Assembly (NCBI GenBank): GCA_014803435.1
Contig: JACYFD010000006.1
Span: 62,001-126,000 of the forward strand
DNA: 64,000 nt
Reading direction: 5' to 3'
Source of the DNA: Cellulosimicrobium terreum
GTDB lineage: Bacteria; Actinomycetota; Actinomycetes; Actinomycetales; Cellulomonadaceae
Positions 41,708-48,827 of this stretch are shown here, piece by piece (the stretch's first letter is position 1; every line of letters starts with the position of its first letter). The notes under the pieces are model-generated. The model was given only the letters and a program-made list of their open reading frames with translations, was not told the DNA's origin and did not search any database. The translations under genes and the position numbers were made by a program.

Positions 41708-44185
41708 TCAGCGATGGTGGGCGATCACGACGTTGACGAGGCGGGGTGGGCGGACGACGACGCGGGCCACGTCCCGGCCGTCGACCGCGCGGTCCACGGC
41801 GGGCAGGGCGAGCGCGCGCTCGCGCAGGGTGACCTCGTCGACGTCCACGGGCACGACGACGCGCCCGCGCACCTTCCCGTCGACCTGCACCACCGCCTCG
41901 ACCGTGTCGTCGACCAGCAGCGTGGCGTCGACGGTGGGCCAGGCGGCGTGCGCGACGGACGGCGCGTGGCCGAGCCGTTCCCACGCCTCCTCGGCCGTGA
42001 ACGGGGCGAACATCCCGAGCAGCACCGTGACGGTCTCGGCCGCCTCGCGGACGGCCGCCGCGTGCGCTCCCGGGTCCTCCCCGGGCAGGGGTCCGTCCGT
42101 CGCGGCACGACGCGCCGCCGTGACCAGCTCCATGAGCCGGGCCACCACGACGTTGAACCTCGACCGGTCGAGGAGGCCCTCGGCGTCGTGCACCGTGCGA
42201 TGGGTCGCGCGTCGCAGGGCGTGCGTACGCGTCCCCAGCAGTGCGGCCTCCGGCCGTGCAGGCTCCGGAGGTACGGCCCTCGCCGGACCCACGCCGTCGA
42301 CCAGCCGCAGGACGCGCTCGCAGAACCGGCGCATCGCGGCCGGGTCGACGTCCGCCCAGTCGACGTCGTCCTCGGGCGGCCCGGCGAACACCATCGCGAG
42401 GCGCACCGCGTCGACACCCCACCGGTCGAGCTGCGCGCCCAGGTCGACGCCGTTGCCCAGCGACTTGCTCATCGCCCGGCCGCCGTTGGTCACCTGCCCC
42501 TGGTTGAGCAGTGTCGCGAACGGCTCGACGACGTCGACCATGCCCAGGTCGTGCAGGAACTTCGTGACGAACCTGCTGTACAGCAGGTGCAGGATCGCGT
42601 GCTCGACCCCACCGACGTACCGCGCGGCCGGCATCCACCGGCGCGTGTCGTCGGGGCGGAACGGGAGATCGTCCGACGTCCCGGACGCGCCCGACGAGCC
42701 GAGCGAGCAGTACCGCAGGAAGTACCACGACGAGTCCACGAACGTGTCGAGCGTGTCCGGGTCGCGCTCCGCGTCCTGCCCGCACCGCGGGCACGGCACG
42801 CGACGCCAGGCTTCCGCGGCCGGTGAGGCGAGCGGCGACCGCCCGTGGGGCAGCAGGTCCCCGCCCGCCAGGTCGGGCAGCCGGACGGGCAGCTCGTCGT
42901 CGGGCACGGGGACGACGCCGCACGTCGCGCAGTGCACGACCGGGACCGGGGCGCCCCAGTACCGCTGGCGGCTGACCAGCCAGTCGCGCAGGCGGTACGA
43001 CGTCGCGGGCTCTCCCGAACCCTCGGCCTCCAGGAGCGCGATCGCGTCCTCGACGGACCCCCACGTCTCGCCCGGGCCCGATGGCAGGCCGTGGGCCGCG
43101 GCGAACCGGGCGTCTCGCTCGTCGTGCGCCGGAACACCCATGACGACACCCGTCCCGTACCCCGGCAGGACGTGCGACCCCGCCCACACCGGCAGTCGTA
43201 CGCCCGTGACCGGGTGGCGCGCCCACGCGCCGAGGAAGACGCCGCGGGCGCTCGCGGTCGACGCCGAGCGCGCGATGTCCCCGGCGTCCTGGGCCTCCTG
43301 GCGCAGCTGCGCGAGGTCGTCGCCGCGGTCCGGCGCGCACAGCGCGGTCGCGACCGGGCTCTCGGGCGCGACGGCGAGGAACGTCACGCCCGGCAGGGTG
43401 TCGGGCCGGGTGGTGAAGGTGGTGAGCACGGTGGCCGCGGCGTCGGGCGAGTCCTCGTGGCCGTCGACGACGAACCGGACCTCCGCCCCCTCGCTGCGGC
43501 CGATCCAGTTCCGCTGCATCGTCAGCACGCGCTCCGGCCACGCGTCCTCGAGCCCGGTCATGTCGTCGAGCAGCCGGTCGGCGTACGCCGTGACGCGCAC
43601 GAACCACTGCGTGAGCTCGCGCCGGACCACGACGGCGCCGCAACGCTCGCACCGGCCGCCCACGACCTGCTCGTTCGCGAGCACCGTGTGGTCCGTCGGG
43701 CACCAGTTGACGGGCGCCGTCGCCCGGTAGGCGAGGTCGTGCTCCAGCAGCCGCAGGAACAGCCACTGCGTCCAGCGGTAGTACTCCGGCCGGTGCGTCT
43801 CCAGGCGCCGCGACCAGTCGAACGAGACGCCGTAGCGGCGGGCGGCCGCGGCCTGGACCTCGATGTTGGCCTCGGTGAACACGGCCGGGTTCTCGCCGCG
43901 CCGGATCGCGGCGTTCTCCGCGGGCAGTCCGAACGAGTCCCACCCGATCGGGTTGAGCACGTCGAAGCCGCGCAGCCGCCAGTACCGCGCGACGACGTCC
44001 TCCAGCGCGAACACCTCGGCGTGGCCCATGTGCAGGTCCCCGGAGGGGTAGGGAAACATCGTCAGCAGGTACCGGCGCGGGCGGGCGCCGTCGTCTCGGG
44101 CACGGAACGTGCCGTGGGTGTCCCAGTACTGCCGCCACCGTTCCTCGGCAGCGGCGGGCGGGGTCGGGATCGGGGTCGTGCGCAT
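41708..44185 (-). CDS. leuS: Leucyl-tRNA synthetase, compact form
   Basis: An 825-residue class I synthetase that charges tRNA-Leu. The HIGH signature is DLHMGH within MFPYPSGDLHMGHAEVF; KMSKS is RAMSKSLGNGVD. The editing (CP1) domain is present, with TTFTTRPDTLPGVTF and GTGVVMGVPAHDERD, so proofreading residues (Thr-rich patch and Asp) are intact. Zinc-type cysteines occur in CERCG and CATCG/CPRCG. Length is near 800-860 of E. coli and B. subtilis enzymes and shorter than the ~950-970 residues usual in actinobacteria, hinting at a second copy. AGGAG precedes the ATG by eight bases, and a leucine-codon leader lies upstream. Confidence 0.93.
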   Translation of the reverse strand: MRTTPIPTPPAAAEERWRQYWDTHGTFRARDDGARPRRYLLTMFPYPSGDLHMGHAEVFALEDVVARYWRLRGFDVLNPIGWDSFGLPAENAAIRRGENPAVFTEANIEVQAAAARRYGVSFDWSRRLETHRPEYYRWTQWLFLRLLEHDLAYRATAPVNWCPTDHTVLANEQVVGGRCERCGAVVVRRELTQWFVRVTAYADRLLDDMTGLEDAWPERVLTMQRNWIGRSEGAEVRFVVDGHEDSPDAAATVLTTFTTRPDTLPGVTFLAVAPESPVATALCAPDRGDDLAQLRQEAQDAGDIARSASTASARGVFLGAWARHPVTGVRLPVWAGSHVLPGYGTGVVMGVPAHDERDARFAAAHGLPSGPGETWGSVEDAIALLEAEGSGEPATSYRLRDWLVSRQRYWGAPVPVVHCATCGVVPVPDDELPVRLPDLAGGDLLPHGRSPLASPAAEAWRRVPCPRCGQDAERDPDTLDTFVDSSWYFLRYCSLGSSGASGTSDDLPFRPDDTRRWMPAARYVGGVEHAILHLLYSRFVTKFLHDLGMVDVVEPFATLLNQGQVTNGGRAMSKSLGNGVDLGAQLDRWGVDAVRLAMVFAGPPEDDVDWADVDPAAMRRFCERVLRLVDGVGPARAVPPEPARPEAALLGTRTHALRRATHRTVHDAEGLLDRSRFNVVVARLMELVTAARRAATDGPLPGEDPGAHAAAVREAAETVTVLLGMFAPFTAEEAWERLGHAPSVAHAAWPTVDATLLVDDTVEAVVQVDGKVRGRVVVPVDVDEVTLRERALALPAVDRAVDGRDVARVVVRPPRLVNVVIAHHR

Positions 44186-44220
44186 GGCGGGTTCTCCTGG
44201 GGACGGTGGGCTCGTCGTCG

Positions 44221-44305
44221 GGCACTCGCCGTGCCACCGGGAACCGTCACCGGGACGCGCGACGTCCGCCGCGCTGAGCGTGCCCGCCCGGCGGGCTCAG
44301 CGCGG
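44221..44305 (-). promoter_or_regulatory. leuS leader with competing stem-loops
   Basis: Between the leader peptide stop and the leuS ribosome-binding site are an 11-bp stem (CCGCGCTGAGC with GCTCAGCGCGG, 44269-44305) that overlaps the last leader codons, a GGACG/CGTCC stem (44253-44267) and a GGCAC/GTGCC stem (44221-44235). GACGGT near 44245 can also pair with ACCGTC next to the leuS Shine-Dalgarno site. No T-run is present, so translational control or GC-type attenuation are both possible. Confidence 0.55.
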
Positions 44306-44344
44306 CCGGAGAAGGAGGAGCCGCATGCGTCGCATCACGGCCAT
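44297..44344 (-). CDS. Candidate leucine-rich leader peptide of leuS
   Basis: A short frame ending in TGA (44299-44297) encodes MRRMRLLLLRPR from ATG 44335, with further in-frame ATGs at 44344 and 44326. The four consecutive Leu codons CTC CTC CTT CTC (44320-44309) sit just before a stem-loop in the leuS leader, the layout of classical amino-acid attenuators. Weak ribosome-binding site; a TTGACC hexamer lies upstream. Expression is not demonstrated. Confidence 0.6.
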   Translation of the reverse strand: MAVMRRMRLLLLRPR

Positions 44345-44450
44345 CGTCACCCCGCCGAGACGCCCGGTCAACCCTCCGATGTCCAGAACGTCACGTTCGG
44401 GTGTGGCGGACGTCGCGCTGTCCCGAGGATGTTCACGTGCCGTGCGCCAG

Positions 44451-46656: not shown

Positions 46657-47485
46657 GCCCCAACCCGCCACGCGAGACGCCGGCAGGTCGTGCCTACAAC
46701 GACTTGCGCAACCTCGCCAAGTCACAGGGCCGCGACCCGGCCGAGTACCTCGCGCCGTACGCGCTCGAGGGCTTCCTGACCCGCCTCGCTGCCTCAGATC
46801 GCACGGACGACTTCGTGCTCAACGGTGGGTGCTGCTCGCGGCCTTCGCCGCGCCTCGGCCCACCCGGGACATCGACCTGGCGGCGTCAGGACTCCCGAAC
46901 GACGTCGACGACGTCGAGCGTCGGGTGCGCGAGATCGTGACCATCGACGTGGTCGACGGACTGGAGTTCGTCACCGACGGGGATCCGCAGCGAGATCATC
47001 CGCGACGACGCGGACTACAGCGGTGTGCGCGTCCATCTCCTCGCCGCGGTGTCGAAGGCGCGGATCCCGATCCACGTCGACGTCAACTTCGGCGACCCGA
47101 CCTGGCCCGAGCCGCAAGCGACGTCCGTGCCGCTCCTCCTCGGCGGCGACGTTCAGTGCTGGGCTACCCAGCTGCGATCAAGGTGGTCGCCGACCACCGG
47201 CACGTCGCGCTACGCAGCCTGGCGGAGACCCTCGAGGGCATGAGTGAGATTGCCCAAGTGCGATGGGTTGCATGGCGTCGCAAGCAGCGCTCGGCGGACA
47301 GCACACCGGAGCGTTTTCACACCTTGCTCGACGAGGTGGAGGCCTTCGCCGACCCGATCTTGGGACGCGGCATCGACGGACTCACCTGGCATCCCCGTCG
47401 TGGACCGGCACGACGGCGCGCCGACGGGGACGACCCCCGCCGGCGCGCCGGCGCCGAGCACGTCAGCCGCAGGCGACCCCGTTGA
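46653..47485 (+). pseudogene. AbiEii nucleotidyltransferase-type toxin, frameshifted
   Basis: Reading starts at GTG 46653 (GTGA overlap with the antitoxin stop) with a typical AbiEii start (YNDLRNLAKSQGRDPAEYL, LEGFLTRLA, DDFVLNGG). It then continues only across three frame changes: near 46829 (one G lost from a G-run), near 46981 (one G gained) and near 47156 (one base lost). The nucleotidyltransferase core GG-x-LLAAFAAxRPTRDIDLA is split by the first. The remainder, PAAIKVVADHRHVALRSLAETLEG to a TGA at 47483, is recognisable. A working toxin is unlikely unless these are sequencing errors. Its end overlaps the LPMO gene on the other strand by 23 bases. Confidence 0.8.
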
Positions 47486-48827
47486 GCGTGAACCCAGCCG
47501 GAGCGGGATGGGAGCCCGCTGTCGCTGTCGCGCCGTTGTAGCCGAACGTGACGGACTCACCCGGGGCGATGCTGGACTTCCAGGCCGGGTGGGTGGCCGT
47601 GACCATGGTTCCCACCTGGTCGACCGTCGCGCTCCAGCCGGGCTCGTCGACGGTCTGGCCGCCCGGGTAGGTGAACGTCACCGACCAGCCGTTGACCGCG
47701 GCCAGGGACGTGTTGGTCACGGTCACCGCCGCGGTGAATCCGGTGCTGTTGCCACCCCAGGACGAGGGTGCGTAGTCGACCGTGCAGCCGCCGGTGGGGA
47801 CCGGCGTCTCGTCGTCGTCCAGGGTCGTGAACGTGACGGACCTGGTGCCCGAGACGGCGCCGGTGCGGTCGTTGCGCGACCGGACGTCCACCGTGTGCTC
47901 CGTGCCGGGTTCCAGCCCGGTCAGATCGACCATCGGTGACCCGTCGGTGCTCGCGATCACCGCACCGGTCCCGGGGTCGAGGACGTCGTACCCCGTGACG
48001 CACCCGGACTGCGCGGCACCCCACATCACGTGCGCGCTGGTGGCGGTGATGCTCATGGCCATCGGGGCGCCCGGCGACCCCGGTGCCTCGTCCGGGCAGA
48101 CGGGATCCGTCGGTTCGCCGCCGCCGTCGTCCCCGATACCCGTGATCTCCCCGTCACCGCCGTCGAACGCGACGTCGGAGCAGCTGTAGAAGTTCTCGTT
48201 GCTGTCCGACCGGACCCAGTGGGTGAAGATCATGTGGTCGCCGGAGCGGTCGGCGGGGAGCGTGACGTCCCAGTAGTAGTAGTTCAGGGCACCCGGCCCG
48301 CCGGTGTCGGGCGGGTTGGTCACCGAGTCGACCAGCTCGAGGTCGCTCCACGCGAGCGGTCCCGACGGGTCCCAGCCCTCCTCGGTGACGTACACGTCGA
48401 AGCGACCAGGGTGCTCGGCCCAGTTGTTGTGCTGGAACTGGTACGTCTCGCCAGCGGTCAGGTGCGTCGTCGGCCAGTCGTCCCGCACGGCGTTGAACCC
48501 GGTGAAGTCGTACGGTCCGCGACCGCCGCCGTCGCAGATCTGTCCGTCGGGGATGTACCCCGCGGTCCGACCCGCGCCGTTCGAGTCGAGGTTGCCGAAC
48601 CAGTTGTAGAACGCCGAGCTCCCGCTCACGGCGTAGGCGTTCGCGCACGCCGGGTTCTGCGGGTCGACCTGGCCGTTCCCCGTCTGGCCGTCGACCCAGC
48701 ACAGGTACTGGCGGCTGCCGGGGAACACCTCGGCGCCGTGCGCCTCGGCTGGGGCGGGCGGGCCGGCCGCCACGAGGCCCGTCGCGCCGAGGACCACGGC
48801 TGCGGCCCAGGCTGCTGTGCGTCGCAT
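47463..48827 (-). CDS. AA10 lytic polysaccharide monooxygenase with FnIII and CBM2
   Basis: A 454-residue secreted copper enzyme. The signal peptide ends in AEA so that His30 becomes the N-terminal copper ligand (HGAEVFPGSRQYLCW). The second histidine and cellulose-type surface lie in FQHNNWAEHPGRFDVYVT, and the axial Phe in NENFYSCSDVAF. About 255-345 is a fibronectin type III-like linker domain (MSITATSAHVMWG, VRSRNDRTGAVSGTRSVTF) and about 355-454 a CBM2 (CTVDYAPSSWGGNSTGFTAAVTVTN, GWSVTFTYPGGQTV). Oxidative cleavage of crystalline cellulose is likely; chitin cannot be excluded. It complements the GH9 enzyme. AAGGAG precedes the ATG. Confidence 0.94.
   Translation of the reverse strand: MRRTAAWAAAVVLGATGLVAAGPPAPAEAHGAEVFPGSRQYLCWVDGQTGNGQVDPQNPACANAYAVSGSSAFYNWFGNLDSNGAGRTAGYIPDGQICDGGGRGPYDFTGFNAVRDDWPTTHLTAGETYQFQHNNWAEHPGRFDVYVTEEGWDPSGPLAWSDLELVDSVTNPPDTGGPGALNYYYWDVTLPADRSGDHMIFTHWVRSDSNENFYSCSDVAFDGGDGEITGIGDDGGGEPTDPVCPDEAPGSPGAPMAMSITATSAHVMWGAAQSGCVTGYDVLDPGTGAVIASTDGSPMVDLTGLEPGTEHTVDVRSRNDRTGAVSGTRSVTFTTLDDDETPVPTGGCTVDYAPSSWGGNSTGFTAAVTVTNTSLAAVNGWSVTFTYPGGQTVDEPGWSATVDQVGTMVTATHPAWKSSIAPGESVTFGYNGATATAGSHPAPAGFTLNGVACG

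Follow-up and report, generated by a model that had tools for sequence, protein, structure and literature searches.

A putative leucine-sensing leader upstream of an auxiliary leucyl-tRNA synthetase gene in Cellulosimicrobium

The window analysed here, a stretch of 64,000 nt from Cellulosimicrobium terreum, carries a leucyl-tRNA synthetase gene that is preceded by a short leucine-rich upstream ORF (uORF) and a hairpin. Transcription of the gene and its leader would run along the minus strand, and the features referred to below are as follows.

41708..44185, minus strand: leuS2, short-type leucyl-tRNA synthetase (LeuRS) of 825 aa (TIGR00396, 807 bits)
44194..44198, minus strand: Shine-Dalgarno (SD) sequence AGGAG preceding leuS2, in part complementary to the leader's Leu codons (over 8 bp in most Cellulosimicrobium species and 6 bp in the window)
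44219..44225, minus strand: segment D (GTGCCCG), by sequence complementarity a candidate pseudoknot partner of L
44268..44306, minus strand: hairpin H1 of 12 bp, with the uORF stop codon in its 5' arm, assigned from folding energy and covariation
44280..44286, minus strand: conserved segment L (CGGGCAC) in the loop of H1, with D as its complement
44297..44335, minus strand: leader peptide ORF encoding MRRMRLLLLRPR and ending in a stop codon, read from the sequence and conserved in the genus and in other actinobacteria
44309..44320, minus strand: putative regulatory Leu codons CTC CTC CTT CTC; the third of them, CTT (44314-44312), occupies the place 8 nt ahead of the hairpin where all relatives have a rare codon
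44343..44348, minus strand: -10 hexamer GACGAT, at a spacing of 17 nt to the -35 hexamer and 7 nt upstream of the ATG of the uORF
44366..44371, minus strand: -35 hexamer of the putative promoter of the leader, TTGACC; this or a closely similar hexamer occupies the position in 15/15 leaders of the genus

The synthetase encoded in the window has intact HMGH, MSKS and CP1 editing motifs. A second leuS of the long actinobacterial type lies about 120 kb away in the same genome, with no leucine-rich uORF or leader of this type upstream of it. The window gene is therefore the second, auxiliary copy and is referred to as leuS2. It was found in 15 of 17 Cellulosimicrobium genomes, all 15 of which carry the leader in nearly invariant form, and one genome that lacks leuS2 retains a relic of promoter, uORF and hairpin beside lpdA (G002:C44:21290-21374, L040). 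Possession of both a long and a short LeuRS was also observed in a Propionibacteriaceae MAG (G620) and in Nocardia macrotermitis (G628), so that duplicated LeuRS is not confined to the family of the window species. Short LeuRS proteins of two groups, g19 and g3 (L077-L083), are otherwise intact but lack the CP1 editing domain, the region corresponding to residues ~236-390 of the window protein; the 637-aa LeuRS of Mycoplasma mobile (3ziu) may be comparable. In the literature searched, nothing was found on a leuS2 in Cellulosimicrobium or on a link to a LeuRS inhibitor. The presence of an auxiliary synthetase invites the question of which situation it is kept for. Elsewhere in the window (47466-48827, minus strand) a secreted protein is encoded whose N-terminal region resembles GbpA (possibly an LPMO) and whose C-terminal domain is cellulose-binding-like; it also has a fibronectin-like part.

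Read on the minus strand from 44335 to 44297, the uORF consists of ATG CGA CGC ATG CGG CTC CTC CTT CTC CGG CCG CGC TGA, i.e. 12 codons and a stop codon that falls 112 nt before leuS. A leader peptide with the codons CTC CTC CTT CTC upstream of leuS had been reported in an earlier reading made from the sequence only, and the present sequence agrees with it to the base. Throughout both strands of the 64 kb window this is the sole ATG- or GTG-initiated ORF of at most 20 codons with a run of three or more Leu codons. Sequences simulated with the composition of the window yielded 0.17 such ORFs per strand and none with a hairpin. The peptides of the 15 Cellulosimicrobium leaders share the pattern MRxxRLLL(R/L/P)xPR, and elsewhere in actinobacteria the pattern M...LLLxxPR was found. 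Alignment of leuS leaders from related genera, which the sequence-only reading had proposed as a check, showed that both the Leu run and the reading frame are conserved across genera.

In all 65 leaders collected from the genus and beyond, a hexamer of the form NANNNT is located 6-7 nt upstream of the uORF start codon. A -10 element at this distance implies that transcription begins at the start codon or right next to it, and the window uORF is thus probably translated from a leaderless mRNA whose 5' end lies at or next to the ATG. A generic consensus promoter scan did not flag the site in the window because its -10 hexamer matches TATAAT at only three of six positions. For leuL2, the counterpart in Streptomyces lividans, a leaderless transcription start site has been mapped by RNA-seq (PMC8079986).

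At the position starting 8 nt before H1, an in-frame Leu codon is present in 65/65 leaders, namely CTT in 62 and CTA in three, and in the genes of the window CTT makes up 1.05% of Leu codons and CTT and CTA together 1.3%. Of these leaders, 36 had been found with a covariance model, which favours CTT, but the 29 family leaders found via the leuS2 protein alone likewise all have CTT at the 8-nt position. A strict leader test applied to 59 distant leuS loci, likewise found by protein, was passed by seven, all with CTT at the same spacing: one from Cellulosimicrobium funkei and six from Microlunatus, Marmoricola, Thermoactinospora and others. In the leader encoding VASQQQRLIGPR, the only Leu codon left is the one 8 nt before the hairpin. 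A ribosome with CTT in its A site would touch the first base pairs of H1, and the spacing thus points to a defined stall position. With a rare Leu codon kept at a fixed 8 nt from the hairpin across families, the leader offers a precise and testable position for a stalled ribosome on a leaderless mRNA.

H1 itself is formed by 12 perfect pairs between GCCGCGCTGAGC (44306-44295) and GCTCAGCGCGGC (44279-44268). The sequence-only reading had placed a stem-loop of 11 bp over the end of the leader ORF; its location is borne out, and the stem is one pair longer. Folded alone, H1 reaches -32 kcal/mol and is more stable than shuffled sequences (z -4.0), while the full leader of the window is not (z -0.3), so that the overall folding energy of the leader does not count among the arguments made here. 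Compensatory changes across genera occur at four of ten core pairs, and in the cross-genus alignment 99.2% of H1 cells are paired, compared to 25-57% after sliding the partners. The stop codon inside the stem is conserved in most groups. Between the loop segment L and segment D, complementarity is present in groups g8, g15, g19, g3 and g1, with a score in g1 that is not above shuffles. A covariation test of this pairing gave no signal, as its core pairs are conserved but invariant, and covariation therefore provides no evidence for a pseudoknot.

To follow the leader beyond the genus, a covariance model (CM R1) was built on 13 leaders related to that of the window. Matches were obtained in 18/396 genomes of the phylum and 54/297 genomes of the order. 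Of 35 classified loci, 33 lie directly upstream of leuS, be it long or short in type; of the other two, one precedes leuA and one (L208) precedes neither gene. Since both types of leuS are preceded by it, the leader goes with leuS as such and not with one orthologous gene. Eleven matches come from one genus (group g33), in which a uORF encoding MRAVRLLLSEPR or a close variant precedes a long leuS; based on the identity of this peptide with that of S. lividans, group g33 most likely represents Streptomyces. In one genome of the window's own family (G165, L185) a leader very similar to those of group g19 was seen before the long leuS, i.e. before the other paralogue. At another locus of group g19 (G185, L079), the end of an apparent transposase ORF abuts the leader hairpin just upstream of leuS2, where promoter and uORF appear to have been displaced by the insertion. 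Searches against Rfam at the gathering score revealed neither a T-box nor another family, the only hits being two tRNAs in the window and none in the loci of seven relatives. Occurring before two types of LeuRS, with a related element before leuA, the leader looks like a sensor of leucine charging that can serve more than one gene. What the sequences show is a conserved uORF with a -10 hexamer at constant spacing, a rare codon in a fixed position, covariation in H1 and an association with leuS across the phylum.

What follows H1 differs between Cellulosimicrobium and its relatives. Under a strict rule, a hairpin followed by a U-tract, as in an intrinsic terminator, was detected in 37/50 leaders outside Cellulosimicrobium; sister groups of the same family possess the same uORF and H1 together with such a canonical terminator, e.g. 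CCCCTCCTGCGCGAGGGGTTTTTT, and in sister genera segment D immediately follows the terminator U-tract. The U-tract after H1 is absent from 15/15 Cellulosimicrobium leaders. As it is present both in sister genera and in distant actinobacteria, it was presumably lost in Cellulosimicrobium rather than gained elsewhere. The absence of the terminator from one genus would offer an example, provided by nature, of an attenuator whose output has switched to another mode.

A candidate for the altered output is access to the SD sequence of leuS2. For most species of the genus, an 8-bp pairing between the Leu codons and the SD region is possible (GGCTCCTC with GAGGAGCC), a length that none of 20 other genes reached. 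In the window species the pairing comprises 6 bp, which is reached by 9/20 other genes and is therefore at chance level. The earlier proposal that the ribosome-binding site region pairs with an upstream segment consequently holds for the genus at large but is weak in the very species for which it was made. Folding predicted that the SD sequence is mostly paired in the ribosome-free leader and that masking of the Leu codons renders it more accessible in most leaders.

These complementarities are also the parts required by a translational switch like that proposed for the LEU element of leuA, in which the H1 loop would form a pseudoknot with segment D, and the Leu codons a base stem with the SD sequence. 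Such an arrangement is a real possibility, if a slightly doubtful one. The leuA leader of the same genome contains the parts in the same order, with a Leu run (CTCCTTCGT) facing the SD sequence ACGAAGG, a hairpin and a loop, AGCCGG, facing CCGGCT. CM R1 matches a leuA leader in another genome (G546), and the L:D complementarity recurs in the five groups named above. However, the match to leuA is weak (E 0.0099, a rough value as the calibration of the model was short), the L:D core is invariant with the g1 score not exceeding that of shuffles, and the pairing of SD and Leu codons is poor in the window species itself.

Alternatively, classical transcription attenuation could also operate in Cellulosimicrobium, with a second hairpin after H1 (hairpin B) serving as a terminator devoid of U residues that stalling at the Leu codons prevents from acting. 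Hairpin B is predicted in all Cellulosimicrobium leaders with stem sequences that vary, and in sister genera a clear hairpin with U-tract occupies the same place. Yet with a U-tract in 0/15 leaders of the genus, no terminator-like site in the leader region of the window and a hairpin B that in the window species is no stabler than shuffles (z +0.6), this explanation is somewhat unlikely. Even in the sister genera, neither masking by a ribosome footprint nor pairing of the Leu codons or the H1 loop with the terminator arms disclosed a consistent antiterminator exclusive of the terminator; when leaders of group g8 were folded with a ribosome stalled at the first Leu codon, the terminator was lost in two of three, an effect that was not general. 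In Cellulosimicrobium the switch is therefore not an attenuator of the textbook form, as neither a standard terminator with a U-tract nor a defined antiterminator is present. It is highly improbable that the hairpin serves the divergent lpdA, which starts 278 nt away on the opposite strand, or is a plain structural relic with an incidental Leu run, as might be thought from the genome that keeps the hairpin without leuS2 (G002), since in other genera the leader precedes leuS in different neighbourhoods and the rare Leu codon keeps both its place and its frame.

The features at this locus are thus most readily explained by a leucine-sensing 5' leader of the auxiliary leuS2 that would permit high expression when charging fails, a reading that we consider likely. 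Sensing of Leu-tRNA charging by a ribosome, as the sequence-only reading had suggested, is still the best account of the conserved Leu run, the spacing of the rare codon and the stop codon in the stem of most groups; that the ribosome stalls, that it does so in response to leucine and that expression rises as a result are inferences. Transcription would start at or next to the ATG of the uORF, and ribosomes would load on the leaderless 12-codon ORF. If Leu-tRNA, read at CTC and CTT, is scarce, the ribosome would wait in the Leu run, at the rare CTT 8 nt from the base of H1; if it is plentiful, the ribosome would continue to the stop codon, which lies in the 5' arm of H1. Each position would leave a different RNA structure and thereby set the expression of leuS2, so that the leader probably raises leuS2 when charged leucine tRNA is scarce. 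In the sister genera, with their hairpin and U-tract, the output looks like transcription termination. In Cellulosimicrobium access to the leuS2 SD sequence is the likeliest output, with the SD being masked by the Leu-codon segment when this is free of ribosomes and released by a ribosome sitting there, although this is the least certain step. Perhaps Cellulosimicrobium and related genera turn on a reserve LeuRS only when charging by the housekeeping LeuRS fails, be it through starvation or a LeuRS inhibitor, after the attenuator had become a translational switch by losing the U-tract and gaining the pairing of Leu codons and SD. This wider scenario is offered tentatively and is rather unlikely to hold in full.

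Leader-peptide control of synthetase genes in actinobacteria has precedents, so that its use for such a gene, which the sequence-only reading had called notable, is not new. Attenuators were predicted in 2005 upstream of leuS in S. coelicolor and S. avermitilis, and upstream of trpS in Streptomyces, and the Streptomyces leuS attenuators were compared with that of pheST (PMC1262725); the leaderless leuL2 (MRAVRLLLSEPR) upstream of leuS in S. lividans TK24 was mapped in 2021 (PMC8079986). The window leader shares with leuL2 a leaderless 12-codon uORF with LLL that ends in LLLxxPR just upstream of leuS, a CTT codon 8 nt before GCCGC and a hairpin over the stop codon, and the covariance model built on relatives of the window leader finds the Streptomyces type. 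It differs in that Streptomyces uses a standard long leuS and a hairpin with a U-tract terminator, whereas the window has an auxiliary short leuS2, no U-tract and the additional complementarities of L with D and of the Leu codons with the SD.

The LEU element described for actinobacterial leuA (PMC1262725) is similar in its Leu-rich uORF, its hairpin, a loop complementary to a downstream segment and Leu codons complementary to the SD. It controls leuA, however, and has no terminator, and the pairing of Leu codons and SD is weak at leuS2 of the window species. The only mutational tests published on neighbouring systems speak against the leucine-sensing reading: according to the summary given in PMC1262725, codon changes in the ilvB leader of S. 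coelicolor were without effect, and results of mutations in the leuA leader were inconsistent with classical attenuation. A leader encoding MRQLLLRCRGEAL was observed about 190 nt upstream of leuA in the genome of the window (L084, G000:C11 near 261000). With its hairpin, loop complement and SD complementarity, this leader is, by its sequence features, a LEU element.

A synthetase operon under leader-peptide control is also found in Escherichia coli with pheST, the attenuator of which relies on Phe codons and a classical terminator/antiterminator. A further parallel is the auxiliary TrpRS1 of S. coelicolor, which Vecchione and Sello reportedly found in 2010 to be under ribosome-mediated attenuation (title cited in PMC4787780). 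In both cases a spare synthetase is preceded by a leader peptide with codons for its own amino acid, although TrpRS1 uses Trp and is tied to indolmycin resistance, whereas leuS2 is not known to be linked to any inhibitor or resistance. Judged by its uORF, rare codon, hairpin and downstream gene, the window leader belongs to the known leuS leader type; its lack of a terminator and its position before an auxiliary paralogue make it a variant of that type. What is new relative to these precedents, as far as the sequences indicate, is the placement of such a leader on a spare copy of leuS and its altered form without a U-tract.
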